Both the position numbers and the translations under genes were made by a program. Of a DNA stretch of 64,000 nt, positions 31,842 to 48,812 are shown piece after piece; position 1 is the stretch's first letter, and each line of letters starts with the position of its first letter. The notes beneath the pieces are model-generated. The model was not told where the DNA came from. It searched no databases and was given only the letters and a program-made list of their open reading frames with translations. This stretch comes from Spirochaetales bacterium. GTDB taxonomy: Bacteria > Spirochaetota > Spirochaetia > SZUA-6 > JAFGRV01. The DNA is taken from positions 1 to 64,000 of the forward strand of contig JAFGHO010000069.1 of assembly GCA_016930085.1 (NCBI GenBank), in the 5' to 3' direction.

Positions 31842-32933
31842 ATGGTCAATGGAAAAAAAGGTAATGGACGCCGCAACACATGGATAAAGCGGATTTTACT
31901 CACCTTTCTTTCGATCATTATCGCCCTGATTGCGGGTGAATGTACCGTCCGTCTTTTCTTCCCGCAGGTACTCTTCCCCCGTTATGTGACGGCAGGAAGC
32001 GGCGGGATCCGTGTCAATATCCCGAACGTCCGGTATTTCCACACCTCGCCCGAGGCCCGGGTCGGGTTCAGGATAAACTCAATGGGGATTCGAAGCGACC
32101 GCGAATACACATTCGAAAAACCGGAAGGTATACTCAGGATAGTCGCTGTCGGCGATTCTTTTACGCAGGGCTATGAAGTCAATGTGGAAGATTCCTATCT
32201 TTATCTGCTCGAGCAATGCCTTGAGAAAAAATATCCGGGCGTCGAAGTCATCAATTGCGCCGTCAGCGGGTTCAGTACCGCCGAAGAGTTGATCATGCTT
32301 CAAACCTTCGGTTTTAATTTTAATCCCGATATCGTCATCGTCGGATATTACCAGAACGATCTCGACGATAATGTGCGGACGGGGCTTTTTTCGATGGGCC
32401 CGGACGGCGAGTTATCGAGGTCGGCGGAAACCTATCTTCCCGCCGTAAAAGAAAGAGACTTTCTCTACTCGCTCGGTATCTATCGCTGGCTTGCCGAAAA
32501 CTCGCACCTCCTCTGCCTGTTGAGGGAACAGCTCGCGTATTTTATAAAAACAAAAGACTATGAAAGGAACCTTGACGATATTTCCGGGGATACGATAAAA
32601 AAGGAAACAGCCCGGACGCTCCTCGGTGCAAAGTTGCTCGATAAAATAAAAGAAGAATGTAATAAACGAAATATTTCCTTTTTTCTCCTCGATATCATAG
32701 ACTTCACGTTTGCCGAATCAAACCTTCCCGCCGGCGCTCTGAAGTTGATTACGGAAGACGACATCGTTCATACACGCTATCCCCTCCTCTCAGCCCGCAG
32801 CAGTGAAACACTCTATCGTCTCAAAGGCCATCTGCACTGGACGGAGGCGGGGCACAGGATCGCGGCGCGGCTTCTTTGCGACCGTCTTTTGGCATCCCTT
32901 AGTGAAAATCCGGATAGCGCCCTGAAAAAATAA
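31842..32933 (+). CDS. membrane-anchored SGNH/GDSL-type hydrolase
   Basis: A 363-residue protein with an N-terminal anchor helix (about 12-32, RILLTFLSIIIALIAGECTVRLF). The SGNH blocks are clear: block I VAVGDSFTQGY with the nucleophile Ser, block II with Gly in NCAVSGFS, block III VGYYQNDLDDN with Asn, and block V near the C-terminus in HLHWTEAGH with the catalytic His; a D-x-x-H form is not seen because the sequence reads KGHLHWTEAGH. Such proteins are esterases or acyltransferase partners that modify exported polysaccharides. The location at the end of the polysaccharide locus fits this. The active site is expected to face the periplasm. Confidence 0.75.
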   Translation: MVNGKKGNGRRNTWIKRILLTFLSIIIALIAGECTVRLFFPQVLFPRYVTAGSGGIRVNIPNVRYFHTSPEARVGFRINSMGIRSDREYTFEKPEGILRIVAVGDSFTQGYEVNVEDSYLYLLEQCLEKKYPGVEVINCAVSGFSTAEELIMLQTFGFNFNPDIVIVGYYQNDLDDNVRTGLFSMGPDGELSRSAETYLPAVKERDFLYSLGIYRWLAENSHLLCLLREQLAYFIKTKDYERNLDDISGDTIKKETARTLLGAKLLDKIKEECNKRNISFFLLDIIDFTFAESNLPAGALKLITEDDIVHTRYPLLSARSSETLYRLKGHLHWTEAGHRIAARLLCDRLLASLSENPDSALKK

Positions 32934-32981: not shown

Positions 32982-33010
32982 TTGACACATGATGCTTTCT
33001 GTAATACTAT
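32982..33010 (+). promoter_or_regulatory. near-consensus promoter of the sensor kinase gene
   Basis: A perfect -35 TTGACA (32982-32987) and TACTAT (33005-33010) at 17 bp. The -10 ends 15 bases before the ATG at 33026, so the leader is about nine bases and contains no Shine-Dalgarno. Confidence 0.75.
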
Positions 33011-33025
33011 AGTAGCGAATCATCG

Positions 33026-35869
33026 ATGAAAAAAAAATCCGTGAAAAAAAACCGTACAGCCATTGGATTCTTTGTCACGAAACTGGATTATGAATACCAG
33101 AAGGAGATATGGCGGGGAATTTGCGACGAAGCCGTATGCCGGGATATCGACATCATCTGTTTTCCCGGTGAAATCATACAGTCGAAATACCGTTTCGAAT
33201 CGCAGGCAAACGTCATCTATCAACTCGCCGGCAGGGAGAATGTCGACGGTATTATCATCCTGGCAAGCACGATCGGTCAATGTATCACAAAGGACGAACT
33301 CTATCACTTTATCAGATCCTATCAAGCCCTCCCCGTCGTGAGTATCGGTTTGACCTTCGAGAATGTCCCGAGCGTCATTGCGGAAAACAAAACCGGCCTG
33401 TTCAGCCTCATCGAACACCTCATCACCGGCCATCGCTGTCGAAAGTTCGCATTCATATCCGGTCCCCGGGGGCATCAGGAGGCCGAAGAACGCTTCAACG
33501 TCTTTAGGGACGTACTCGCCAACCACGGCATCCCGTTTGATGACAGGCAATACATACAGGGGGACTTTCTTGAAGACTCGGGGAAACAGGCCGTCGACAC
33601 CCTTATGAACACACTCAAAGGAAACGTGGATGCGATTGTCGCGGCAAACGATTCAATGGCGATCGGTGTGCTCGAAGCCCTGCAGGCAAGGGGTATCAGC
33701 GTACCGAAAGACATCATTGTAACCGGGTATGATAATATCAGGGAAAGCCAGAATTACACCCCCCCGTTAACGACGGTAAACCAGCCTATTTACACGTTGG
33801 GACAAAAGGCATTGCAGCTCATCGCCGGAATCGTCGGGAACGAAAAGACCCCGCCGAACATCGTCCTCCCCTCACACGCTGTTATACGCCAATCCTGCGG
33901 CTGCTTTTCACATATCGCAAAACAGGTTTTCATCAATGATACGGCGACAAGCGGCGTTTCTTTCTCCGAGGACTTCCTTTCCTACAAAGACGATATCATC
34001 GAAGAATGTTCGGATATACTAAACAAGAATCCGATGTCACATCTTACCGACGATCAGTTCAAAGAACAGGTCCGCGGCCTTATCGTTTCCTTCTATAACG
34101 ATATGAAAAACCCGAACTCCGAGGCTTTATTGTCCATGCTGAATACCATCCTGCATGATTCTGTTATCAAGGGAATCGAGGTGACCTACTGGCACGAGAT
34201 TATATCGCTTATCCGCAAATACGTGCTCAGATTCAATCTCTCGAGGGAAGCATTGATAAAGGCGGAAAACATTTGCGAACAGGCAAGGGTCCTTATCGGC
34301 GATACTTCCCGCCGGTATCAGGCATATATCCGCATCCAGCTGGTGAAACGGACGGACCGGCTGCGCGAAGTGGGGAATACACTGATTTCCAACTTCGATC
34401 TCGACAAGCTTTCGGACGTTCTGGTCACCTCACTTTCGGCTTTACAGATACGTCAATGCTACCTCGCACTCTACCGGCACGAATCCAAGGTGCCCGATAC
34501 CGCACGGCTTTTTCTTGCCTATAAAAGCGGAAAGCCGCTTGTCATTAAAGGGAAAAACCGGTCATATAAAAGCAGGACGATTCTCCCGCCCGGCCTCTCC
34601 TATAACGAACACCGTTGTACAATGATCCTGGAACCACTCTATTTTCAATATGATCAATTCGGGTTCCTTTTCTGCGAGATGTTTCCGGATGAACCGGTCA
34701 TATTCGATACCCTGCGGCAGCAAATAAGCATCACCCTCAAGGGTGCTTTCCTGCTGGAAGAGATAAAGCAATATGCGGGAAATCTCGAAAAACAGGTCGC
34801 GAAACGAACCAGGGACCTCACCATATCGAACAGGCAACTCGAAGAAGAGATACAACTGAGAAAAAAAGTGGAAGAAAGTCTGAAAGAAAGCGAGAAAAAC
34901 CTGCGCGCCATTACGGAAGCGACCCCTATCCCCCTCGTGATTATCCGCATGAACGACGGGCACATTCTTTACGCGAACAAGCCCTTCTGCAAGACCTTCG
35001 GCATTAAAAGCGAATACGATAAAGAAATCAGTCTTCAGGATTTTCTGTATGACAGGGAGTTCATGAAAGAACTGCATCATAAATTACGTAAAGAAAATCA
35101 CCTTTCAAACGTTGAAATTCCGGTCCATAACACCGACGGTCACGATTTCTGGGTTATTTCGTCGTTTCAGAAGATGATTTTCAAAGGCGAGCGATGCATC
35201 CTTGCCGGGTTTTATGATCTTACCGAACGCCGGAAACTCGAACGGGAAGTGCTCGAGGTAATCGGAAATGAAAGAAGAAGAATCGGCCAGGACCTTCATG
35301 ACGATATTTGTCAGGACATGGTGGGAATCGGTGCAATTGCAAGTGTCATCGAGAACCAACTGATAAAAGTGGATCCCCAAAAAGCGGAAAAAGCGAGCTA
35401 CCTTCGGCAATTGATAAAAAACACCATCATCAAAACAAAGTCATTGGCAAAAGGCCTTTATCCGGCTGAACTCGAATACAGTGGTCTTATTGAAATGCTC
35501 AAGGAACTGGCCTCAAGCGTTCAGGTGCAATTTAAAATATCCTGCCATATAATATTTGACATTAAGGTTGAAATCGAGGATAATCTCCTTAATTTACATC
35601 TGTATCGGATCGTTCAGGAATCGGTGACAAATGCGGTGCAGCACGGAAAGCCTTCACATATCGAAATAACGATCAATTCCATGTATGATAAAGTGGAGCT
35701 TGTCGTCACGGATAACGGTATCGGAATTCCAAAGAAATATGAATCGTCGGGGGGAATGGGGATACGAAGCATGCGATACAGAGCGAATGTTGTCGGAGGT
35801 AAATTGAACATTAAAAAAAACCGGGGAGGGGGGACAACGGTAACATGCATTATCCCAAGAAAAAAATAA
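33026..35869 (+). CDS. soluble histidine kinase with LacI-type sugar-binding sensor
   Basis: A 947-residue kinase. Residues about 10-290 form a periplasmic-binding-protein-like domain of the LacI/GalR type (AIGFFVTKLDYEYQKEIWRG; FISGPRGHQEAEERF; VDAIVAANDSMAIGVLEAL; IIVTGYDNIRES; TTVNQPIYTLG). There is no helix-turn-helix ahead of it, no signal peptide and no membrane helix, so it should sense a cytoplasmic sugar. A helical linker, a GAF-like region (about 445-580), a coiled coil, a PAS domain (about 622-735), a HisKA_3 domain with phospho-His H758 (GQDLHDD) and a HATPase (N-box ESVTNAVQHG, DNGIGI, GGMGIRSM) follow. The cognate regulator is 17 bases downstream. Its position beside xylanolytic genes suggests a xylo-oligosaccharide ligand. 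Confidence 0.85.
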   Translation: MKKKSVKKNRTAIGFFVTKLDYEYQKEIWRGICDEAVCRDIDIICFPGEIIQSKYRFESQANVIYQLAGRENVDGIIILASTIGQCITKDELYHFIRSYQALPVVSIGLTFENVPSVIAENKTGLFSLIEHLITGHRCRKFAFISGPRGHQEAEERFNVFRDVLANHGIPFDDRQYIQGDFLEDSGKQAVDTLMNTLKGNVDAIVAANDSMAIGVLEALQARGISVPKDIIVTGYDNIRESQNYTPPLTTVNQPIYTLGQKALQLIAGIVGNEKTPPNIVLPSHAVIRQSCGCFSHIAKQVFINDTATSGVSFSEDFLSYKDDIIEECSDILNKNPMSHLTDDQFKEQVRGLIVSFYNDMKNPNSEALLSMLNTILHDSVIKGIEVTYWHEIISLIRKYVLRFNLSREALIKAENICEQARVLIGDTSRRYQAYIRIQLVKRTDRLREVGNTLISNFDLDKLSDVLVTSLSALQIRQCYLALYRHESKVPDTARLFLAYKSGKPLVIKGKNRSYKSRTILPPGLSYNEHRCTMILEPLYFQYDQFGFLFCEMFPDEPVIFDTLRQQISITLKGAFLLEEIKQYAGNLEKQVAKRTRDLTISNRQLEEEIQLRKKVEESLKESEKNLRAITEATPIPLVIIRMNDGHILYANKPFCKTFGIKSEYDKEISLQDFLYDREFMKELHHKLRKENHLSNVEIPVHNTDGHDFWVISSFQKMIFKGERCILAGFYDLTERRKLEREVLEVIGNERRRIGQDLHDDICQDMVGIGAIASVIENQLIKVDPQKAEKASYLRQLIKNTIIKTKSLAKGLYPAELEYSGLIEMLKELASSVQVQFKISCHIIFDIKVEIEDNLLNLHLYRIVQESVTNAVQHGKPSHIEITINSMYDKVELVVTDNGIGIPKKYESSGGMGIRSMRYRANVVGGKLNIKKNRGGGTTVTCIIPRKK

Positions 35870-35886
35870 AAGGATTGCGGAGATAA

Positions 35887-36546
35887 ATGTTACGGAAAAA
35901 AATTAAGTTTATCGTTATCGACGACCATCCTATTTCACGTGAAGGTCTCGTTTACCTTATCAACAATGAAAAGGATTTTTCCGTCGTCGCAGAGGCAAGC
36001 AGTGCTGAAGAAGCACTGAAAATCATCAAAGACAGGGAAGTCGATTTTGCCCTGGTAGATATCTCGCTCAAAGGGATCAATGGCCTGCAACTCATACGAA
36101 AATTGACGCACGCCTATCCGAACCTGAAAATTCTCGTTGTCTCGATGCATGATGAAACCCTCTACGGGGAGCGGGCGATCGATACCGGAGCGGACGGATA
36201 TATCATGAAAGAGGAGACCTCACACAAGGTGTTGAAAGCGATCCGTCAAATCCTCTCCGGCAATATATATGTCAGTGACGCGATGAAGCAGCGGGTTTCA
36301 CTCGGTATCATGAAAAAAAAACAGACCCTTGGCTCGAGTATTGTCGATAAACTGAGTGACCGTGAATTCGAGATATTCCAGCTTATTGCGAAAGGCATGG
36401 GTCCGGCACTGATCGCCAAAAAACTTAATATGAGTGTTAAAACGGTCGAAACCCACAGAAACAACATAAAAATTAAGTTCAATCTTTCAACTGCCTACGA
36501 GCTGCGGGAGTTTGCCATCAACTGGTTTCAAAACAAATACGGATGA
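35887..36546 (+). CDS. NarL/LuxR-family response regulator
   Basis: A 219-residue DNA-binding regulator. The receiver domain (1-125) has D12/D13, phospho-acceptor D58 (ALVDISLKG) and K108. The C-terminal LuxR helix-turn-helix (about 152-215) reads KLSDREFEIFQLIAKG...IAKKLNMSVKTVETHRNNIKIKFNL. It is the partner of the preceding HisKA_3 kinase by spacing (17 bases) and by family, since NarL-type regulators pair with HisKA_3 kinases. The likely targets are the flanking glycoside hydrolase genes; this is inferred from position. Confidence 0.92.
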   Translation: MLRKKIKFIVIDDHPISREGLVYLINNEKDFSVVAEASSAEEALKIIKDREVDFALVDISLKGINGLQLIRKLTHAYPNLKILVVSMHDETLYGERAIDTGADGYIMKEETSHKVLKAIRQILSGNIYVSDAMKQRVSLGIMKKKQTLGSSIVDKLSDREFEIFQLIAKGMGPALIAKKLNMSVKTVETHRNNIKIKFNLSTAYELREFAINWFQNKYG

Positions 36547-36571: not shown

Positions 36572-39391
36572 TTACTCCCTGAAACAGCTTTCGGGAGGCC
36601 CGAGGTAACTCGGTGAGATCGTCTTCGTTTCAACGACGAGCTTTTGAAGGACGATGCCCGGATGGACCATCCAGAACTTCAATACATGCCCACCCGCCTC
36701 TTCAATCCGGTGCCGTGAACAGGTCACATTTATATTGTCGCTTACCATCCTCAACCATGCTTTATAAGAGAAATGCTCGTGGATATTGACAATCTGCGGG
36801 GTGGCCGAGTCGAACGAAACCGCGTAACATAAACCGCCGGTGTTGAGGCAGTCGAGTGTCGGCGAAAGATAAACCCGTACCGCAACATCGCCGGGATTCC
36901 TCACGTATATTCTATATTCAAGCCGGGGACTCTCCCCGCCCGGTCTCTGTACCGACATGGTCACCGGAAATGTCGTCATCGCCGAACGTGTCCTGCCCAG
37001 CGAAGGAATACACTTCCAGGTGATTTCATCCGTGTCGACCGCCCTGCTGTAATGTTCGGCCTCGAGGGAAACGTAACCGTTTCCCTCGATAAATCCTTTC
37101 ACCGCCTCTTCACCCTGACTGCCGGGTTTATCGACTGCGGCACTCACCGCAACAGGCTTCTTTCCTGTTCCGGTGACATGAAGATGCGCCCGGTGTTTTC
37201 CGGCCGGGACCGCATTCCAGTCACACCATATCCGAACACGCTGTTCGGTTTCGATCACCCCTTTGTCCGGCTTTGCGTGAAGCCAGTTTCTATCGGTCTC
37301 GACAGAAAAGCGAAATGGTTTTTTCCCCCTGTTGAATATCTCGATATAGTAAACCTGTCTTTTGTACGAATCGAATTCGGGCAAAACGGCATCACAGCCG
37401 GATGCCGGCCACCATTCTTCCGATCCTTCAATAGCGACCCCCATATCGGCAACGTCGGGGAGCGTAATCTCCTTCACATCGGGCAGGCGATTGATTTCCG
37501 GCTGTTGCCATGAAATATACCCGATATGAGTCTGATCCATTATATGATTCCATTTGCCCCCCGACAAATCATGATTGTAATATGATGTATATTCGGCGTC
37601 TTTGCTGAACAATTTCCTCGCGAGGTCCGCCATATCGTTAGCGGACGCCCTCCCCTGTCTCGCATAGAGACGGTTTTTCGCGACCGCCACATATAGTTCA
37701 TTCAGATTGGCACAGGCCGATACCATATAGTGGACAAGTTGATAATAGGCGTCCTTGTATTCTGCGGGAAGCCTGCGATAGATCCGTTCGCTCGCTTGCC
37801 TGCATTCATTGTAATCGGCAAGCACGGTTTCGGCCTCACGGTAATTGACAAGGCTGTAGACATGCGGCGAGAGAAGCTCCGGCTTGCGGCGGCTGTTATA
37901 CATGGTATAACGGGAAATAATATCGGCAATTTCCGATGCGTATTCCTCCCCGAACTGCCGGCTGGCCCACCGGCGGGTGTAATCGTTCAGGTCACAGACG
38001 GACCATCGATCGGCATACCACGCGTGGTCGAGAAAAAAGTGTGCGGGAAACTCCATCGGTTTAATGTCCCCTACATTGACGATCCAGATCCGGTCCACAC
38101 CGTATTTGTAGGCGAGATTCATCTGTTCCCATGTTCTCGTTATCTGGGACGTATTGACCCATTTGTAATTTCTCGGCGCGCCCACATAATCGAAATGGTA
38201 ATACATACCGTATCCGCCGCTTCGGGGCTGTTCCCCCTTCAGGGGCAACTTTCGTATATTCCCCCAGTTGTCGTCGCAGAACATCATGGTCACGTCATCC
38301 GGTATTTTCATCCCCTTTTCATAGTACTCCTGAACTTCTTTGTAGATTGCCCAGAGTTGCGGCAGATTGCCGGATTCCCTGCCGGTCGACTCGGAGATAA
38401 TGCACCGCTGGTCGTTCACGATCTTTTCAAGCAGGGATATGTTTGCTTCTTTGGACATCGGTTCATCACCGTCCCCCCTCATCCCGACGGTAATAATACT
38501 CTCATACCCGCTTATCCGCTTAACGCCGGTTTCCCAGAACTTTTTCAGGATATCCTCGTTTTTCTCGTAATTCCACGGCCCGTCCCCATACATCTGCCAT
38601 TCGCTGTGGGCACGCATCATCGGTTCATGATGAGACGTTCCGATAACGATCCCATATTCGAAGGCGGTCTTCGGATTGGCCGGATCGTCGTCATAAAAGG
38701 CATGACCCCACATCGCGGGCCAGAGGAAATTCCCTTTCAGGCGGAGAATCAGTTCGAAGACCTTTTCATAAAAGCGATGAGTAAAGCCCCCGAAGTTTTC
38801 ATTGGCCCATTTGGTGAGGGCCGGGTATTCGTCGTTGATGAAAATACCTCGGTACCTGACGGCCGGTTCGCCTTCCGTATAACAACCGGGCAGGACATAA
38901 AGCGCCCTGCGTTTTGTTATCGGTACATCGGCCCAGAAATACCATGGGGAAACACCGATCCGGAGGCAGAGGTCGTATATTCCGAATATCGTACCCCGCT
39001 GGTCGCTTCCGGCGATTACCAGGGCGCGTTCGACACCCGGAAACGGGGTTTCGACCGTTTGAATGATGAATGACTCCCACCTTCCTTCAATCATCCCGGA
39101 TGCGATCTTCTTTTTTTCCGCAAGCCCGTCAATCAAAGAGCTTTTACCGATTGTTCCCGCACAAACGATCTCCCTGGCCCGGGGAACCGTATCGAAAACG
39201 AGGTCCGGTTCCGTACCCGTTACACGCCCGATATCGACGGCACATTGTTTGAACGCCTTTTTCACTCCCGTAAAGTCACCGGTATCGATGTATAACGGTG
39301 CAGACAGCCCCTCATCCGAAAGAACGAATGCCCCCGCCCCCTTTTCATGCGTAAAAGTGATATATTCATTTTTCTTATCGTTTTTCGCCAT
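36572..39391 (-). CDS. GH115 xylan alpha-1,2-glucuronidase
   Basis: A 939-residue enzyme of glycoside hydrolase family 115, which removes (4-O-methyl)glucuronic acid from xylan and its oligomers. Family-like segments include VIAGSDQRGTIFGIYDL, WFWADVPI-like WYFWADVPITKRRALYV, RGIFINDEYPALTKW, GNFLWPAMWG, GTSHHEPMMRAHSEW (about 251-265) and GMRGDGDEPMS, followed by a helical domain and a C-terminal beta-sandwich. No signal peptide is present, so it is cytoplasmic. The second of two adjacent ATGs (39391) is chosen for its six-base spacing from GGAGG. It converges on the response regulator (25 bases) and is divergent from GH10. Confidence 0.88.
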   Translation of the reverse strand: MAKNDKKNEYITFTHEKGAGAFVLSDEGLSAPLYIDTGDFTGVKKAFKQCAVDIGRVTGTEPDLVFDTVPRAREIVCAGTIGKSSLIDGLAEKKKIASGMIEGRWESFIIQTVETPFPGVERALVIAGSDQRGTIFGIYDLCLRIGVSPWYFWADVPITKRRALYVLPGCYTEGEPAVRYRGIFINDEYPALTKWANENFGGFTHRFYEKVFELILRLKGNFLWPAMWGHAFYDDDPANPKTAFEYGIVIGTSHHEPMMRAHSEWQMYGDGPWNYEKNEDILKKFWETGVKRISGYESIITVGMRGDGDEPMSKEANISLLEKIVNDQRCIISESTGRESGNLPQLWAIYKEVQEYYEKGMKIPDDVTMMFCDDNWGNIRKLPLKGEQPRSGGYGMYYHFDYVGAPRNYKWVNTSQITRTWEQMNLAYKYGVDRIWIVNVGDIKPMEFPAHFFLDHAWYADRWSVCDLNDYTRRWASRQFGEEYASEIADIISRYTMYNSRRKPELLSPHVYSLVNYREAETVLADYNECRQASERIYRRLPAEYKDAYYQLVHYMVSACANLNELYVAVAKNRLYARQGRASANDMADLARKLFSKDAEYTSYYNHDLSGGKWNHIMDQTHIGYISWQQPEINRLPDVKEITLPDVADMGVAIEGSEEWWPASGCDAVLPEFDSYKRQVYYIEIFNRGKKPFRFSVETDRNWLHAKPDKGVIETEQRVRIWCDWNAVPAGKHRAHLHVTGTGKKPVAVSAAVDKPGSQGEEAVKGFIEGNGYVSLEAEHYSRAVDTDEITWKCIPSLGRTRSAMTTFPVTMSVQRPGGESPRLEYRIYVRNPGDVAVRVYLSPTLDCLNTGGLCYAVSFDSATPQIVNIHEHFSYKAWLRMVSDNINVTCSRHRIEEAGGHVLKFWMVHPGIVLQKLVVETKTISPSYLGPPESCFRE

Positions 39392-39482
39392 CATTTACCT
39401 CCCGTTTGTCTTAGGCTTGTCTCGGCCATATGCCCTCAATCCTATCCGTTTTTTAATCTAGTTTTTTTGACTACTATCTGCC

Positions 39483-39680: not shown

Positions 39681-40724
39681 ATGTTGAAAGAGAGTATAGG
39701 AAATCATTTTAGCATAGGAACCTCACTTAATAAAGATCAATTTACGGGGAAAGATGAAAAAGCGGTAAAAGTTCTGAAAGAAAATTTCAACTCCATCACC
39801 GCGGAAAATGCCATGAAATGGATGCACCTTCAGGAAACGGAGGGGAGATTTACTTTCGAGACTGCCGACCGGTTTGTCGGGCTGGGCAGGGAACTCGGCA
39901 TGTTCATCGTGGGCCATACTCTGGTCTGGCATAACCAGACGCCGGAATGGGTATTCGAGGATGACTCCGGTAAACCCGCCGATCGCGAGACACTGCTTCA
40001 TCGTATGCGGGAGCATATCGTTACCGTTGTCGGCCGTTATAAAGGAATGGTCGGCGGATGGGATGTCGTCAATGAAGCCGTCAGTGCCGACGGCACGTTG
40101 AGGCCCTCGCGATGGCTTGATATTATCGGCGTCGACTATATTACAAAGGCCTTTGAGTTTGCCCATGAGGCGGATCCCGGGGCCGAATTGTATTACAACG
40201 ATTACTCGCTCGTCGATCCACCCAAAAGGGACGGCGTTATACGGCTTGTCGGCGATCTTCTTTCGCAGGGCGTTCCGATACACGGCGTCGGGATGCAGGG
40301 ACACTGGGCACTTGATTTTCCGGTGCGATCTGATTATATTGAAGCGAGTATACGGGGTTTTTCGGATTGCGGAGTAAACGTTATGATCACCGAACTCGAT
40401 GTGGACGTTCTTCCTTATCCCGGGGCAGACAGGGGTGCCGATGTTTCTTTGCGATATGATTACCAATCGTCATTCGATCCGTATCCGGAAACACTGCCGG
40501 ATGAGATCCGGCAACGCCTGGCGGACCGTTACGCCGGGTTGTTTCGGATTTTCAAAAAAATGAGCGACAGGATAGGCAGAGTGACGATATGGGGAATCAG
40601 TGACGGGTATTCGTGGCTGAACAACTGGCCTATGCGCGGCAGGACCAATTATCCGTTATTATTCGACCGTGACTATAAACCAAAGCAGGCGTTCTATGAG
40701 GTGCTTAGAAGTATGTCGGCGTGA
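39681..40724 (+). CDS. GH10 endo-1,4-beta-xylanase, cytoplasmic
   Basis: A 347-residue single-domain GH10 enzyme that cleaves internal beta-1,4 bonds of xylan or xylo-oligosaccharides. The acid/base is E132 in GWDVVNEAV and the nucleophile is E238 in MITELDV. Other GH10 landmarks are TAENAMKW, GHTLVWHNQTPEWVF, YYNDYSL, GVGMQGHW and TIWGISDGYSWL. There is no signal peptide or binding module, so it resembles intracellular GH10 xylanases that act on imported oligomers. It shares a divergent control region with GH115. Confidence 0.95.
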   Translation: MLKESIGNHFSIGTSLNKDQFTGKDEKAVKVLKENFNSITAENAMKWMHLQETEGRFTFETADRFVGLGRELGMFIVGHTLVWHNQTPEWVFEDDSGKPADRETLLHRMREHIVTVVGRYKGMVGGWDVVNEAVSADGTLRPSRWLDIIGVDYITKAFEFAHEADPGAELYYNDYSLVDPPKRDGVIRLVGDLLSQGVPIHGVGMQGHWALDFPVRSDYIEASIRGFSDCGVNVMITELDVDVLPYPGADRGADVSLRYDYQSSFDPYPETLPDEIRQRLADRYAGLFRIFKKMSDRIGRVTIWGISDGYSWLNNWPMRGRTNYPLLFDRDYKPKQAFYEVLRSMSA

Positions 40725-41000: not shown

Positions 41001-42218
41001 ATGGATTATGAGAAAGATCTCGAGATTGTTGCGGCGGGTCATACATGCCTCGATCTGATACCTGCTTTTAACATCGATCACAGCGTCGACAAACTGACGG
41101 ACGTGCTGGTTCCCGGCAAAATGATCAATATGGGAGAATGTGTGGTTGTCGGCGGAGGCCCCGTCACCAACGCCGGCGTATCGATACGGCGTCTCGGCGT
41201 CAAGACCGAATTAATCGGAAAGATCGGAAACGATGACTTCGGGAAACAGATTCTTCGGTGGTATGAAGAGCACGAAGGCCATTTCGAAGGGATTAAAGTG
41301 GTTGAAGGAGAATCAACCTCGTATACGATCGCGATCTGTATACCGGGAATCGACCGTTTTTACCTGCATCATTGCGGTGCAAACGATACCTTCGGGTATG
41401 ACGATATGAATTTCGACCTCGTCAAGCGGACAAAGCTTATGCTTTTCGGCTATCCGCCATGGATGGCGAAACTGTACAGGAACAATGGCGCAGAGTTAAC
41501 AAAGATACTCAAAAAAACAAAGGAATTGGGAACGACGACCGCCCTCGATCTTTCTCTTCCCGATGTCAACAGCCCCGCGGGCCAGGTCGACTGGTCCTCC
41601 ATTTTGAAAGACTGGGTACCATTGTCCGACATCATGGTACCGAGTGCCGAGGAACTTTTTTATTTTCTTTATAAACATCAGTTTCTCGAAAAGAAAAACC
41701 GTCTTGGACCGAAGGAAAGCGTTCTCGATCACATGACAGTCGACGAGATAACGAGGATGGGTGACGACCTGATCGCAATGGGCTCCGCCATCGCGATGGT
41801 AAAATGCGGACACCGTGGACTTTACATACGAACGGGAGAAAGCAGACGGCTCAAAGAACTGGGCGCGGCCGGAGGTTCGAATATCGAAAACTGGGCAAAC
41901 AGGGAACTCTGGTTCCCGGTCTACGAAGAAGAAAAATTCGTGGGTGCACTCGGTTCGGGCGATTCCGCTATTGCCGGATTCCTCTCGGCCTTTGTATGGG
42001 AACATTCGATCGAATCGTGCCTCAGGTACGCAAATGCTGCAGGCAGCATGAACGTCACCGTTCCCGACGGATTGACATGGAACAAGGGATTCGATGATCT
42101 GACAAAACGGATCAAGGCAGGATGGAAAACCAAGGAATTGAAGATAAACGAACAAGGCTGGAAGTACGAGAAGGGATTCTGGGTCGGACCGCGTAACAGC
42201 GGCAAATGGGAATCCTAA
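41001..42218 (+). CDS. PfkB-family carbohydrate kinase
   Basis: A 405-residue kinase of the ribokinase/PfkB family. The N-terminal GGGPVTNAGVSIRRLGVKTELIGKIGNDDFG and the C-terminal ALGSGDSAIAGF are the two family signatures; D321 is the predicted catalytic base, in GSGD rather than the more common GAGD. It phosphorylates a sugar, nucleoside or sugar acid; the substrate cannot be read from sequence. Its place among xylan enzymes suggests a pentose or glucuronate-derived sugar. It is longer than usual (about 300-330) through an insertion around 180-290. AAGGAG lies upstream of the ATG, and GH3 follows after 43 bases. Confidence 0.85.
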   Translation: MDYEKDLEIVAAGHTCLDLIPAFNIDHSVDKLTDVLVPGKMINMGECVVVGGGPVTNAGVSIRRLGVKTELIGKIGNDDFGKQILRWYEEHEGHFEGIKVVEGESTSYTIAICIPGIDRFYLHHCGANDTFGYDDMNFDLVKRTKLMLFGYPPWMAKLYRNNGAELTKILKKTKELGTTTALDLSLPDVNSPAGQVDWSSILKDWVPLSDIMVPSAEELFYFLYKHQFLEKKNRLGPKESVLDHMTVDEITRMGDDLIAMGSAIAMVKCGHRGLYIRTGESRRLKELGAAGGSNIENWANRELWFPVYEEEKFVGALGSGDSAIAGFLSAFVWEHSIESCLRYANAAGSMNVTVPDGLTWNKGFDDLTKRIKAGWKTKELKINEQGWKYEKGFWVGPRNSGKWES

Positions 42219-42261: not shown

Positions 42262-44079
42262 ATGTCAAAAGAAAGAGATGCATTTGTCAGCAAAAAATTG
42301 GCAGGCATGAGTTTAATGGAAAAGGTCGGTCAACTCCTCACATTCACTTGGCGGGGGACGATTCTGACGCCAAGCGGTATCGAGCAGATTACACGGCTTC
42401 AATGCGGCGGTCTTTGCCTCGAACCCTACGCACTCGAGACCTCAAAAAACCTCTACTGGGGAAACACCCAGCTGGATAAAAATTTTAAAAAACCAAAGGA
42501 TTACTTTACCATTTCAAATACCTATTTCAACGGTAAAACCTTCGGGATCAGCATCACCCCGCCGGACTACACGAAGGCACTGAATAAACTGCAGAAATTG
42601 GCGGTCAATCGCCCTTCAGGTATTCCTCTTCACATGACCATCGACTTCGAAGGCGATTTCAAAAACGATTACATGTCCGGTGGAATTCGGCAGTTCCCGG
42701 GACCGATGGGAATGGCCGCTATCGGCGATGTGAAACTGACGTACGAAATCGGCGCGACAATCGGCAGACAGCTCGCCGCCATGGGCGTCACCCAGATGTA
42801 TTCGCCGGTCTGCGACGTGAACGTGAATCCGAAAAATCCCGAAATCGGGGTGAGGGCGTTCAGCGACGATCCGGAAGTATGCGCGAAACACGCCGTTGCA
42901 TTGCTCAAAGGGTTCCAGGACAACGGTATCGCTGCCTCGGCGAAACACTTTCCCGGCAGGGGGGATTCGGCTACGGATGCCCATGATGTACTGGATGTCA
43001 TCAAATCGAGCAAATCGAGAATGCAGGAAGTCGAGCTGGTTCCGTTCAAGGCTGCGATCGATGCCGGGGTCAAAGCGATCATGACGGCCCATTCCATATA
43101 CCCGGCATATGATGCCGAATATCCCGCAACCCTTTCCGAAAAAGTGCTTACCGGCTTATTACGGGGTGAGCTTGGGTTTGACGGTGTAATCGTTTCCGAT
43201 GCTATCGGTATGGCGGCCATCCTCAAGAAATGGCCCCTCCCGCAGGCATGTGCCATGGCGATCAAGGCCGGGGTCGACACGATTCTTCTCAAGGCGGATG
43301 ATGAATCAAGGTCACAGTGTTTCTTCGGCATCAAACAGGCGGTCGAAAATGGAGAACTGTCCGAAGAAAGGCTGAACGATGCGGTCACCCGTCTTCTGAA
43401 AATGAAATACGATCAGGGGCTGTTTACCAACCCGGTCGAAAAGGATCCCGTTCAGGTACACAATACTACCGCGAGTAAACAAATCATCGATTTTTCGGCG
43501 GATGTTGCCAAAAAGGCGATGGTGGTCATGCGTGACGACAAGAAACTGCTTCCCCTGAATCCGAAACAGAAAATACTGGTTATCGAGCAGCGCATCCCGT
43601 ATGAGTTTGTCGGAAAGGATCCGTACAATCACACGCACGTGTTCTGCGAAGCGATGGTCAACCACTCGCACAATCTTATTCTGGTCGATACGGCATTCGC
43701 CGCCTTTGAAGACGAAATCGCCGAATGTCTCGAACTTGCCAAACAGGCCGACATCGTCGTGATGACCAATTATTATGCCCGTATCGTCAAAACCGGCAAC
43801 AACCAGCTTCTTGCCAGAAAACTGAAAAAAGCCGGACACAAGATCGTCGTAGTCACCAACAACCCGTACATCGAAGGAACGACTGCGGAAGCGGACGCCG
43901 TCGTCTGTCATTTCAGCGGCACTCCGGATTCGATCCGGCTTTCCACCGACCTGCTTTTCGGCAAAATAAAGCCGTGCGGAACGACAAAGGTGCCGGTAAA
44001 ACTCAGCGCGCAAAAAACGGCCCCGCCGAAAAAACTCAAGGCGTTGAAGAAAAATCCCTTTGGTTTGAGTGGTTCGTAG
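42262..44079 (+). CDS. GH3-family glycosidase, copy A
   Basis: A 605-residue GH3 enzyme of the NagZ-like branch. The KHFPGRGDSATDAH segment (228-241) matches the KHFPGHGD..DSH motif, where H241 would serve as general acid, and D313 in VIVSDAIGM is the nucleophile. The second domain (about 410-570) resembles the C-terminal sandwich of two-domain GH3 proteins. Substrates could be beta-N-acetylglucosaminides or, given the neighbours, xylosides or glucosides; family 3 is too broad to decide. There is no signal peptide. It ends in a Lys-rich tail absent from its close paralogue at 47073-48812. AAGGAG lies upstream. Confidence 0.85.
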   Translation: MSKERDAFVSKKLAGMSLMEKVGQLLTFTWRGTILTPSGIEQITRLQCGGLCLEPYALETSKNLYWGNTQLDKNFKKPKDYFTISNTYFNGKTFGISITPPDYTKALNKLQKLAVNRPSGIPLHMTIDFEGDFKNDYMSGGIRQFPGPMGMAAIGDVKLTYEIGATIGRQLAAMGVTQMYSPVCDVNVNPKNPEIGVRAFSDDPEVCAKHAVALLKGFQDNGIAASAKHFPGRGDSATDAHDVLDVIKSSKSRMQEVELVPFKAAIDAGVKAIMTAHSIYPAYDAEYPATLSEKVLTGLLRGELGFDGVIVSDAIGMAAILKKWPLPQACAMAIKAGVDTILLKADDESRSQCFFGIKQAVENGELSEERLNDAVTRLLKMKYDQGLFTNPVEKDPVQVHNTTASKQIIDFSADVAKKAMVVMRDDKKLLPLNPKQKILVIEQRIPYEFVGKDPYNHTHVFCEAMVNHSHNLILVDTAFAAFEDEIAECLELAKQADIVVMTNYYARIVKTGNNQLLARKLKKAGHKIVVVTNNPYIEGTTAEADAVVCHFSGTPDSIRLSTDLLFGKIKPCGTTKVPVKLSAQKTAPPKKLKALKKNPFGLSGS

Positions 44080-44490: not shown

Positions 44491-47025
44491 ATGCCAGCAT
44501 CGAACAATTTCAATGTGAAAGATATCTTTACCATTTCGGGCTCACAGATATCGGATATTTACAAAACAAACAGAATGACGGTTCATTTCCAGGGAATGTC
44601 CAAAACACTCCAGTTTCCTCAGACGATCGCCCTCCAGGGCGCCCCCACCTGTTCAATCGGCATATCACCTGAGGGCCTGTACAACCGGCTGAACGACGCG
44701 GGCAGGCTTATCCTTCTGAATCAGAACGCGATTCAGCTGGGCTCCGCGCCCTTCATCCGTATCGGCGACACCTTCACGATGCTGACAACCAGGACTCCCG
44801 TAGCCGTCGAGGGTCCGGACGATGTCCCGGCTTTGAAAAATTATTATCACGCGCCGATCGCCGAAGACAACGTCACCATTTCGATCGCGACTCCCCTTGC
44901 GGAGTTGTCCTATAAAGTTGGAACCGTCGGAGTAAAACGAAGATTTGTCTCGCCGCTTGTGTCAGGGAACAATCAGGCCCTGATGCCGATCGGCGTCGAG
45001 GAGTATGAGGTAAAGAACGCATCGAACAAATCGAGGGAAATAACCCTTGTCATTCCCAGGCCTTCCCTGGTGAATCTTCAGGAAAAAGAACTCAAGCCGA
45101 CCGATCAGGACAGTATTTATGTCTCGAGCGCACCTGTCAAAGGTCACCGGCACGAAGAGTTCACCTCGGGCTCACTCCGCGGGGTGATCATGGGAAGCCG
45201 GGAAAGTAAAAACAGAATGCTGATAGCGGTCCCCGACATTGACGGCCTCCGCATCGATGCACAACCGTATGTTCATCTGAACAGATACAAGCAGGATATG
45301 CTGTTGAACGCCGACGGTAGTTTTTATGAAAAGTACGAAGCCTGTTTCAACAACGATTACGGAGCCGCGATCAGTATTACCTTTTCCCTTGAGCCGAAAG
45401 CGTCGATCACCATACCCTTTATCGTCGTCCTCGATTTCCCGCAGCAACGATATATCGACGGGAAAATTTTTGACAGGAAATATAGTAAAAGCTTCAGCAA
45501 CGATGAAACCAGGGTAGTCGATATGGCGCAAACGGCCTACAAGCACTATCGGGAATGGTGGGACCGGACCATGAACTTTCATAGCAGGTTGTTTGAGCTT
45601 ATACGGCAAAGCCCCGCGTATAAAAAAGACAGGGGAGGCGCATTACGGGTACTCAGGCTTTTAATCAATGAATTCAGTTTTCCGTTATCGAACGCCGCGG
45701 TCTGGATCGAAGACAAAAACGGGAAGGACAAAGCCAGGTTTCTCGAGTGTTTCGATTATTCGTATATCGATCCTTCGGATGTCGACTGGTATTCGATGGT
45801 CATTCTGCTGCTTTTTCCCGAAATAGAAGAGGAACTCTGCCAGCGATTTATCGACTCGATTCTGGCGGAAGATCTGTCGGAACGCTTTTATCACTATCAC
45901 TCCTCGTTTGTCGAAGCAAGGCTTCATTACGAGATGTTTCCTGAAGAATATGAAGACGTTGTAATGACGCAGATTCGTGATACCTTCAAAGTCAAGGGAA
46001 GTGTGGCGCATGATCTGGGAATGATGCCGAAAGGCCATGCATTGAGGAATATCAGCGATTATGCCTGGTACAACAACAACTACTGGATCGACCTCTACCC
46101 CAAACTTGTCCTTCGTGTATTGCGTAATTTCAAGTTCACGGGAAACCGCGATTTTATCAAGAAAAACTGGAATACCCTCAAGTTCGGATTCGAATACCTG
46201 CAAACCCTCGATATCGACGGGGACGGCATCCCCGAAGGGAATCCCGACGAGGTAAAAAACACCTTTGATAATCTCACCTTGTTCGGTATCGATGCCTATG
46301 ATGTGACCATGTTCATGGCATGTTGTCTGGCCATGAAGAAGATGGCGATAATGATGAAGGATGCGGAAGCGGAAAAGAAATATGAAGAGGTCTACCTCAA
46401 AGTTTCTGAAATCTTCGAGAAGTTATGGAGGGACAAGACAAATCGGAAAGGCAACCGGCTTCAGTATTATATCACCTGCTATGATCCCGAGTCGGGGAAA
46501 ACAAACGAGGATGTCTGGACCAATCAACTCGATGCAATATGGTCGATGATCGCCATGGGTGAAGAGCCGTTTATCCCGGCAGAAAGAATAAAGCAGATTC
46601 TCAAAACGATCTATGTGAACAATCTCACGACGATGGGCTGGTGTATGACCAGAACAGAGGACGGAGAAGAAGTGGAATCCGAACAGGGCCAGGATGTCTA
46701 TACCACATCAAACTATGTTTTTGCACAGTTGCTTCATCATTACGGCATGACGGAAGAAAGCAAGGAAGTGTACAAAAAAATGGACAAGGTCGTATTCGAG
46801 CACGGCAACTCGCTTATTACGCCGGATAACCTTCGTGCGGAATACGAACTGGAAGACGGTGAAGAAAAAGAAGGCCCGCATTATATTGTCGCCGCTTACC
46901 CAAGGCCGGGAGCCATTTTATCCCACATCATGATACAATACATCATGGACCTCAAGCAGAAGAAAAAGATAGATGTGGTGGATCCGAAAGATCTGATTGA
47001 CTTTATTACCGGCTTGAGAAAATAA
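44491..47025 (+). CDS. GH116-like glycosidase (beta-glucosidase/xylosidase type)
   Basis: An 844-residue protein with an N-terminal beta-sandwich (about 1-330) and a C-terminal (alpha/alpha)6-type catalytic region (about 370-830). Segments resembling GH116 (non-lysosomal glucosylceramidase family) are VAHDLGMMPKGHAL, WIDLYPKLVLRVLRNFKFTG, DGDGIPEGNPDEVKNTFDN followed by FGIDAYDVTMFMACCLAM, and TNQLDAIWSM. Members cleave beta-glucosides or beta-xylosides. No signal peptide is seen. The usual DQTYD near the D-G-D-G segment is changed to VKNTFDN, so the exact family and activity are uncertain. It lies between two GH3 paralogues. Confidence 0.65.
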   Translation: MPASNNFNVKDIFTISGSQISDIYKTNRMTVHFQGMSKTLQFPQTIALQGAPTCSIGISPEGLYNRLNDAGRLILLNQNAIQLGSAPFIRIGDTFTMLTTRTPVAVEGPDDVPALKNYYHAPIAEDNVTISIATPLAELSYKVGTVGVKRRFVSPLVSGNNQALMPIGVEEYEVKNASNKSREITLVIPRPSLVNLQEKELKPTDQDSIYVSSAPVKGHRHEEFTSGSLRGVIMGSRESKNRMLIAVPDIDGLRIDAQPYVHLNRYKQDMLLNADGSFYEKYEACFNNDYGAAISITFSLEPKASITIPFIVVLDFPQQRYIDGKIFDRKYSKSFSNDETRVVDMAQTAYKHYREWWDRTMNFHSRLFELIRQSPAYKKDRGGALRVLRLLINEFSFPLSNAAVWIEDKNGKDKARFLECFDYSYIDPSDVDWYSMVILLLFPEIEEELCQRFIDSILAEDLSERFYHYHSSFVEARLHYEMFPEEYEDVVMTQIRDTFKVKGSVAHDLGMMPKGHALRNISDYAWYNNNYWIDLYPKLVLRVLRNFKFTGNRDFIKKNWNTLKFGFEYLQTLDIDGDGIPEGNPDEVKNTFDNLTLFGIDAYDVTMFMACCLAMKKMAIMMKDAEAEKKYEEVYLKVSEIFEKLWRDKTNRKGNRLQYYITCYDPESGKTNEDVWTNQLDAIWSMIAMGEEPFIPAERIKQILKTIYVNNLTTMGWCMTRTEDGEEVESEQGQDVYTTSNYVFAQLLHHYGMTEESKEVYKKMDKVVFEHGNSLITPDNLRAEYELEDGEEKEGPHYIVAAYPRPGAILSHIMIQYIMDLKQKKKIDVVDPKDLIDFITGLRK

Positions 47026-47072: not shown

Positions 47073-48812
47073 TTATGCATTCGAGATGGGAAGCGATGCC
47101 TGCGGTTCGATTTTTCCGAAAAGGAGTTCAGCCGATACCCTGATCGAATCGGGCGAACCGCTGAAATTGCATACGACGGCGTCGGCCTCCGGGGTCGTCC
47201 CTTCCACATAGGGGTAATTGGTAACGACGACCACGGTATGTCCGGCATCTTTCAGCCGTTTGACGAGTCTCGCGTTATTGCCTGCCTTTTCGATGCGCGC
47301 GTAATAATTTGTCATCACGACCAGATCGGCCTGTTTGGCCAGCTTCAGGCATTCTTCGATTTCATCGTCCGTTGCATGAAAATCGGTATCGAGGAGAATC
47401 AGATTTCGCGACTGATTGACCATCGCTTCACAGAAAACATGTTGATGGCTGTAGGTGTCCTTGCCCAGAAAAACATAGGGGATACATTGTTCGACGACCA
47501 ATATCCGTTGATCGGGCGCAAGCGGCAGGAGATTCTCCTCGTCGCGGACGATCATAAGCGCTCTACGCGCCGCATCAAGCGACAAGTCGATCACCTCCCT
47601 GCTGCGGACGATCGCACGGGTTTTTTCCGGGTCCATCGTGCCGGCTTTCTCGAACAACCCCTGATCGTATTTCATACCCAAAAGGCGGCGGACCGAATCG
47701 TCGATCAGGGCCTCGGGAAGTTCTCCCGTTTCCACCGCGTGTTTAATACCGAAAAAACATTGTGATCTCGATTCATCGTCCGCTTTCAACAATATTTCAT
47801 TTACACCCGCCTTTATCGCCATCACGCAGGCTTTCGGAAGGGGCCATTTTTTGAGAATCGCCGCCATCCCGATCGCGTCGGAAACGATCACGCCGTCGAA
47901 CCCGAGTTCATCGCGCAAAAGACCGGTAAGAATCCTTTTCGACAAGGTCGACGGGTATTCCTGGTCATACGCGGTATAGATGGTATGCGCCGTCATCACC
48001 CCCTTGACCCCCGCATCGATAGCCGCCTTGAAGGGGCGCAACTCGACCTCGTGCATTCGTTTCATGTCGGCCCGAACGACGTCCAGAACATCATGGGCAT
48101 CGGTCGACGAGTCGCCGCGGCCCGGGAAATGTTTTGCGGTCGCGGCCAGGCCGCCGTCCTGGAATCCCCTGGTGAGGGCGGCGGCGAATTCGGCGCATAC
48201 AGCCGGATCGTCACTGAATGACCGTACCCCGATTTCGGGATTTTTCGGATTGATATTGACGTCGCACACGGGCGAATATATCTGGGTCACACCAATGGCC
48301 GACAACTGCCTGCCGATCGTCAACCCGACGTTATATGTAAGATCGAGATCGCCGGTCGCGGCCAGACCCATCGGCGGCGGAAACTGCCTGATACCGCCCG
48401 CCGTGTAATCGTTTTTAAAATCCCCCTCGAAGTCGATTGCCATATGAAGCGGAACCCCCGAAGGTCGTTCCGTTACGGCGATCTTCTGCAGCTGATTGAG
48501 AATTTCGGTGTATTCTTCCGGGGTGACGCTTATTCCCGGATTGTGATTGTTAAAATAGGTATTCGCGATGGCAAAATATCCGGGCGGTTTGACAAAATCC
48601 GGGTCGAGCTGGGAATTCCCCCAATACAGGTTCTTGCATGTTTCCTGCGTATAAGGTTCGAGGCAGAGCCCGCCCGCGTGAAGCCTCACGATCTGTTCGA
48701 TCCCGCTTGGGGTGATCAAACACCCGCGCCAGGTAAAGGTCAGCATATGGCCGACTTTTTCATCGAGACTCATACCGTCGATTTTTTGTTTGATAAATGC
48801 TTCCTTTGTCAT
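47073..48812 (-). CDS. GH3-family glycosidase, copy B
   Basis: A 579-residue paralogue of the GH3 at 42262-44079, on the opposite strand. Long blocks match, for example GGLCLEPY, KHFPGRGDS-TDAHDVLDV (227-245), LGFDGVIVSDAIGMAAILKKWPLP and KADDESRSQCFFGIK. H240 and D312 are the predicted catalytic residues. It lacks the Lys-rich tail of copy A. Predicted cytoplasmic, with the same substrate uncertainty. AAGGAG lies 11 bases before the ATG, and a good promoter is upstream. It converges on the GH116-like gene with 47 bases between. Confidence 0.85.
   Translation of the reverse strand: MTKEAFIKQKIDGMSLDEKVGHMLTFTWRGCLITPSGIEQIVRLHAGGLCLEPYTQETCKNLYWGNSQLDPDFVKPPGYFAIANTYFNNHNPGISVTPEEYTEILNQLQKIAVTERPSGVPLHMAIDFEGDFKNDYTAGGIRQFPPPMGLAATGDLDLTYNVGLTIGRQLSAIGVTQIYSPVCDVNINPKNPEIGVRSFSDDPAVCAEFAAALTRGFQDGGLAATAKHFPGRGDSSTDAHDVLDVVRADMKRMHEVELRPFKAAIDAGVKGVMTAHTIYTAYDQEYPSTLSKRILTGLLRDELGFDGVIVSDAIGMAAILKKWPLPKACVMAIKAGVNEILLKADDESRSQCFFGIKHAVETGELPEALIDDSVRRLLGMKYDQGLFEKAGTMDPEKTRAIVRSREVIDLSLDAARRALMIVRDEENLLPLAPDQRILVVEQCIPYVFLGKDTYSHQHVFCEAMVNQSRNLILLDTDFHATDDEIEECLKLAKQADLVVMTNYYARIEKAGNNARLVKRLKDAGHTVVVVTNYPYVEGTTPEADAVVCNFSGSPDSIRVSAELLFGKIEPQASLPISNA

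Follow-up and report, generated by a model that had tools for sequence, protein, structure and literature searches.

A soluble LacI-type sensor kinase beside xylan genes in a dockerin-rich spirochaete and the candidate cytoplasmic sugar-sensing module that it carries

A two-component kinase with the ligand-binding domain of a sugar repressor lies next to genes for xylan breakdown in this spirochaete. Which signal would such a kinase read, which genes would it control, and is its sensor half peculiar to this locus? We analyzed the kinase (HK1) and its regulator in the window, the whole 64,000-nucleotide stretch of DNA, where the pair comprises the following features.

33026..35869, + strand: soluble sensor histidine kinase HK1, 947 aa (ORF, Pfam, hydropathy, AlphaFold2)
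33056..33895, + strand: LacI/GalR-type type I periplasmic-binding fold without helix-turn-helix (HTH), aa 11-290 (Pfam, LacI alignment, Foldseek)
33893..33904, + strand: S290-C-G-C293 motif at the end of the binding domain (comparison of own-genome members)
33902..34387, + strand: helical bundle, aa 293-400, and long signalling helix, aa 407-454 (AlphaFold2)
34400..34678, + strand: GAF domain without Pfam match, aa 459-551 (AlphaFold2, Foldseek)
34898..35227, + strand: PAS domain, aa 625-734 by Pfam, with AlphaFold2 elements at 637-731
35270..35866, + strand: HisKA_3 with phospho-acceptor H758, and HATPase_c (Pfam, AlphaFold2, motif check)
35887..36546, + strand: NarL/FixJ-type response regulator (REC, GerE HTH), 219 aa (ORF, Pfam, motif check)

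An ORF check gave HK1 the same boundaries as a sequence-only reading of this DNA. Pfam returned Peripla_BP_3 at residues 130-291 (1.2e-30), Peripla_BP_1 at 12-276, PAS at 625-734, HisKA_3 at 749-816, and HATPase_c at 857-946. The LacI HTH (PF00356) had no Pfam match in HK1 but was recognized in both true repressors of the genome. H758 lies within the H box (QDLHDD), and the N, G1, and G2 boxes are all present. The adjacent REC-GerE regulator, whose ORF starts 17 nt after that of the kinase ends, keeps its phospho-acceptor Asp, with the acidic pocket D12/D13, D58, and K108 all retained. All Kyte-Doolittle 19-residue windows of HK1 were below 1.6 (maximum 1.42), giving no membrane helix, and no N-terminal hydrophobic stretch indicative of a signal peptide was found by the same measure. 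The sequence-only reading had described a LacI/GalR-type binding domain without a DNA-binding domain, no signal peptide or membrane helix, PAS and HisKA_3/HATPase domains with phospho-His H758, and a NarL-type regulator 17 bases downstream, and each of these was borne out.

With HisKA_3, HATPase_c, and the H, N, and G boxes of NarL/UhpB-type systems, the pair is a HisKA_3/NarL two-component system. HK1 shares the type I periplasmic-binding core and effector pocket of LacI/GalR regulators, but it is outside the LacI repressor family because it lacks the HTH. It is also outside the Bacteroides-type hybrid systems, having neither a transmembrane kinase, a periplasmic sensor, nor a fused regulator. 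In NCBIfam, the N-terminus resembled LacI-type regulators and the C-terminus UhpB/NarX-type kinases, all with scores far below the cut-offs, and HK1 is therefore none of those named proteins.

The AlphaFold2 model of HK1, built on a 60-sequence alignment, had a mean pLDDT of 85.9 and a pTM of 0.64. The predicted order was a type I periplasmic-binding fold (11-290), a helical bundle (293-400), a long helix (407-454), an alpha/beta domain (459-551), a coiled coil (558-630), PAS (637-731), dimerisation helices, and the ATPase; the helical and alpha/beta segment modelled by itself reached a pLDDT of 91.6. Foldseek matched the first domain to an ancestral LacI with fucose, CcpA, CelR with cellobiose, and RbsR with ribose. 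For residues 459-551, the best matches were GAF domains (Lcd1 with cAMP, NifA-like, and kinase GAFs). The predicted fold thus supports a GAF identity for this region, which Pfam missed and which the earlier reading had called GAF-like.

The sugar contacts R197/W220/N246/D274/Q291 of LacI align with R156/F181/N208/D236/Q253 of HK1; comparison with LacI-family pockets had been proposed as a check on the binding domain. Nearly all of the 24 proteins of this genome that share the HK1-type sensor retain the pocket R, F/Y/W, N, and D (Arg, the aromatic residue, and Asp in essentially all), and the remaining pocket positions vary, as expected of paralogues with different ligands. This pattern argues against the LacI-type domain being a dimerisation or protein-interaction platform that binds no small molecule, with GAF or PAS as the real sensor; GAF and PAS are sensor folds and the GAF is conserved throughout the family, yet we consider a platform improbable. 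Equivalents of R156 and D236 are also found in PurR, so the pocket indicates ligand competence and does not give ligand identity. Prediction of the ligand from the pocket residues was not decisive. A sugar is the likely class of ligand, and a non-sugar compound a less likely one.

A near-consensus promoter had been proposed for the kinase, and it was located as follows.

32982..33010, + strand: sigma-70-like promoter TTGACA-17-TACTAT, 15 nt before the HK1 start codon (10/12 consensus matches; the arrangement recurs in an orthologue)

Since the region contained 16 promoter-like sites compared with 10.4 +/- 3.2 in shuffles, we rejected the site as significant by itself. Its assignment rests on recurrence at a nearly equal distance in the orthologue with 63% identity (genome G002), where TTGACA-17-TAGAAT (11/12) lies 13 nt before the ATG (L116:188-216). 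Spacings of 15 and 13 nt imply a very short 5′ leader. The HK1 transcript would be nearly leaderless, and no clear Shine-Dalgarno sequence was seen in window positions 32982-33026. That the promoter provides steady expression, as the sequence-only reading suggested, is a guess.

Downstream of the pair, the window encodes six xylan and sugar genes.

36572..39394, - strand: GH115 (xylan alpha-glucuronidase family) without signal peptide (domain call, hydropathy); kept beside the orthologous kinase in G002
39681..40724, + strand: GH10 xylanase family without signal peptide (domain call, hydropathy)
41001..42218, + strand: PfkB-type sugar kinase (domain call)
42262..44079, + strand: GH3 without signal peptide (domain call, hydropathy); orthologue in the G002 cluster
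44491..47025, + strand: GH116 without signal peptide (domain call, hydropathy); orthologue in the G002 cluster
47073..48812, - strand: GH3 without signal peptide (domain call, hydropathy); orthologue in the G002 cluster

Kyte-Doolittle analysis detected neither a signal peptide nor a membrane helix in any of these six genes. Judged by sequence, the hydrolases beside HK1 fit an intracellular processing of imported xylo-oligosaccharides. The genome has only two GH115 genes, one of which adjoins HK1. Intracellular xylan enzymes had been noted nearby on both strands; this holds for the strands, but all of them lie on the right side. On the left (22.8-33 kb) lies an exopolysaccharide/glycosyltransferase cluster that extends to a GDSL protein (31842-32933) 92 nt upstream of HK1.

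Among 61 related genomes, clear 1:1 orthologues of HK1 were found only in G002 (63%) and G004 (59%); the three kinases form one fully supported clade in the sensor tree, and the regulators of both loci share 77% identity with that of the window. In G002, the kinase-regulator pair is convergent with GH115, with GH3, GH116, and GH3 beyond; these cluster genes are 61–79% identical to those of the window and stand in a different order, and the contig covers the right side, ending upstream of the kinase. In G004, the pair is flanked on one side by a GH52 (beta-xylosidase family) gene and on the other by a GH10 gene that also encodes a dockerin. Both orthologues thus adjoin xylan genes, and the neighbourhood survey spoke for the proposed carbohydrate link. 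The principal evidence on HK1 function is that xylan genes have stayed beside the pair through rearrangement; it supports the xylan link for the orthologues. The G004 orthologue also has a bearing on whether HK1 might respond to, or control, the exopolysaccharide cluster that reaches so close to its start: its upstream gene encodes a beta-lactamase-fold protein, with GH52 and GH10 in the region, and a role tied to exopolysaccharide appears very improbable. The beta-lactamase-fold protein (L097:11562-13409) has a signal peptide-like start and membrane segments, and its gene, which runs on the strand of the kinase, stops 37 nt short of it, making it a possible operon partner.

We consider it probable, short of confident, that kinase and regulator work in the cytoplasm as a two-component system for sensing a small xylan-breakdown product and controlling the nearby hemicellulose genes. 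Xylose, xylobiose, or another short xylo-oligosaccharide would most likely be the ligand after import, closing the LacI-type domain. The signal would pass the SCGC hinge, the helical bundle, and GAF and PAS, together with the coiled coils of these two, before reaching the HisKA_3 dimer; the NarL-type regulator may then adjust, in either direction, transcription from putative target promoters of the GH115, GH10, GH3, GH116, and PfkB genes. On balance, a xylan-derived sugar is the probable ligand; this reading derives from the gene neighbourhood of the orthologues alone. Counted against it are the occurrence of the orthologue in three genomes only, the absence of a shared binding motif upstream of the GH genes of these genomes, the PurR-like pocket residues, and the position of the closest paralogue of HK1 (HK2) away from xylan genes, beside a Na/H exchanger and ZnuA. 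The placement of HK2 among unrelated genes would also suit a CcpA-like sensor of a central sugar or sugar phosphate that regulates other genes, the xylan neighbourhood being coincidental or co-inherited. CcpA is among the closest structures, and a search for shared 12-mer motifs upstream of the GH genes of the three genomes gave only A/T-rich words barely above shuffles, hence no common promoter motif. Both orthologues nevertheless keep xylan genes despite changed order (G002) or content (G004), and we regard a central-sugar sensor as a lesser, though real, possibility.

Whichever ligand it binds, the sensor half of HK1 may be one copy of a general cytoplasmic sugar-sensing module attached to many outputs in place of the LacI HTH. 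Kinase and Peripla_BP_3 searches of the host genome found 26 Peripla_BP_3 proteins, only two of which are classical LacI repressors with an HTH. The other 24 (HK1 and 23 others; 750–1282 aa) share the sensor: a LacI-type domain, the sequence R-x-S-C-G-C, and a GAF-like domain. Ser and the first Cys are present in 24/24 and the second Cys in 23/24. In all 24 paralogues, the S-C-G-C motif sits at the junction of binding domain and relay, where its role may be redox-related, metal-related, or structural. HK1 has every element of the proposed module, namely a LacI-type domain without HTH, SCGC, a helical bundle, and GAF, followed by a variable output. No strong or convincing membrane or signal segments were found in the 23 paralogues by Kyte-Doolittle analysis.

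The sequence-only reading had not brought out this set of paralogues. Their outputs in this genome, as assigned by Pfam, span nearly all types of signalling in bacteria and were as follows.

Two-component: HisKA_3 kinase, 4; other kinase, 3 (HisKA detected in one, HATPase_c only in two)
Hybrid: kinase-receiver, 1; kinase-receiver-GGDEF, 1; kinase-receiver-LuxR, 3
Further: GGDEF, 2; PAS-GGDEF-EAL, 3; HD-GYP, 4; SpoIIE, 2; MCP, 1

Several members stood out. Three soluble LacI-type hybrid kinases ending in a receiver and LuxR HTH (L062:9612-12527, L063:4948-7800, and L063:13467-16379) each lie within 0.5 kb of a dockerin gene, have a shortened linker before the GAF, and are cytoplasmic analogues of Bacteroides hybrid systems. 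A soluble methyl-accepting chemotaxis protein with the LacI-GAF sensor (L053:7819-10068, contig C107) adjoins a kinase that also carries the module, has dockerin genes less than 3 kb away, and possibly mediates chemotaxis to an intracellular sugar. Three tandem LacI-GAF-PAS-GGDEF-EAL proteins (C93:27735-37118; L051, L008) lie beside one of the two true LacI repressors, and the gene of the HisKA_3 paralogue HK4 follows a co-directional GH5-dockerin gene at a distance of 79 nt.

The host genome (G000) yielded 148 Dockerin_1 matches and five weak cohesin matches, four of the latter in one 1724-aa frame (C104:60685-64512). This number of dockerins is far above expectation outside cellulosomal bacteria, so the host spirochaete looks cellulosomal. 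Dockerin-rich regions include C104:51515-73319 and C40:18201-51001. Ten of 24 module genes lie within 5 kb of a dockerin compared with ~5 expected, a modest enrichment (p ~0.02, with an approximate null fraction), and dockerins were the commonest family (11/77) in a pooled Pfam scan of paralogue neighbours. The paralogues as a class are thereby weakly tied to polysaccharide genes. A module family serving plant-polysaccharide use fits the organism, the link being firm for the HK1 orthologues only.

A scan with the SCGC pattern of one genome per GTDB species identified 68 loci in Spirochaetota, Chloroflexota, Fibrobacterota, Bacillota, Myxococcales, and one ‘Proteobacteria’ MAG, so that relatives of the module span six phyla with taxa taken from record titles. 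SCGC invariance in the 68 loci is by construction, and the own-genome count is the independent one. Carriers in Spirochaetota include Treponema berlinense, T. zioleckii, and T. saccharophilum. Treponema loci have an AraC-type HTH output, and Brevinematales and one Spirochaetales locus have a PAS-LuxR-like end, these AraC and LuxR-like outputs being assigned by phmmer or sequence reading and not by Pfam. The rumen-type Treponema with the module-AraC-type HTH fusion (L163-L183) include cultured species and would be tractable hosts. A profile of the helical-GAF segment matched 102/393 genomes of the phylum. A scan of viral contigs with HK1 gave no match.

In a tree of the sensor part (72 rows; a quick tree with several long branches), output type required 20 changes against a minimum of nine, indicating that outputs were probably swapped repeatedly. 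AraC formed one group, as did GGDEF-EAL, and HisKA_3 required two changes because HK1/HK2 and HK3/HK4 form separate clades. What is new here is the sensor module together with its distribution: apart from one review remark, the searchable literature, which leaves many subscription papers outside, yielded no LacI-type cytoplasmic kinase and no earlier description of the module as a family. With reasonable confidence, we propose that the LacI-SCGC-helical-GAF unit is a previously undescribed, general-purpose module for sensing sugars in the cytoplasm, repeatedly coupled to HisKA/HisKA_3, hybrid, GGDEF, GGDEF-EAL, HD-GYP, SpoIIE, MCP, AraC, and LuxR outputs across Spirochaetota, Chloroflexota, Fibrobacterota, Bacillota, and others. 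In the cellulosomal host it would largely have replaced the LacI repressor (24 versus two) and would connect the identity of sugars in the cell with transcription, c-di-GMP, and chemotaxis simultaneously.

The module equips kinases, c-di-GMP enzymes, phosphatases, and a soluble chemoreceptor with the sugar pocket of a repressor. The 24 natural variants in one genome, with a shared relay and differing pockets and outputs, are a ready set for studying how one fold serves many outputs and would be useful for building intracellular sugar biosensors. They also point to an understudied lineage of cellulosomal spirochaetes, to which this uncultured, plant-fibre-degrading bacterium belongs.

The usual account has polysaccharide degraders sensing glycans outside the cytoplasm, through transmembrane kinases or anti-sigma factors, or with simple cytoplasmic LacI repressors. 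Like the repressors LacI, CcpA, RbsR, and CelR, HK1 has a type I periplasmic-binding core with the pocket residues and would read a cytoplasmic sugar; unlike them, it lacks the HTH, and its output is a histidine kinase reached through a helical, GAF, and PAS relay. XylR of E. coli combines a LacI-type sensor with an AraC HTH and no kinase, and to our knowledge has no helical-GAF segment. It resembles the module, whose Treponema relatives are AraC-type, in that a LacI-type domain has parted from the LacI HTH and joined a different output, whereas the output of HK1 is a kinase. In XylFII-LytS, an extracytoplasmic LacI/RbsB-fold binding protein and a membrane kinase sense xylose. This system likewise ties a LacI/RbsB-fold protein to a kinase and to xylose use, but HK1 is one soluble polypeptide with a HisKA_3 kinase. 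A review of c-di-GMP signalling mentions, in one sentence, GGDEF/EAL/HD-GYP proteins with Peripla_BP as a putative sensory domain (PMC8846402). Those proteins have the same sensor fold on a signalling output, and that passage mentions neither a module nor a GAF segment nor an SCGC motif. In the hybrid two-component systems of Bacteroides, sugar-controlled histidine kinases that are membrane sensors regulate polysaccharide-use genes (PMC10766802, PMC11253607), whereas HK1 is soluble and acts with a separate regulator.
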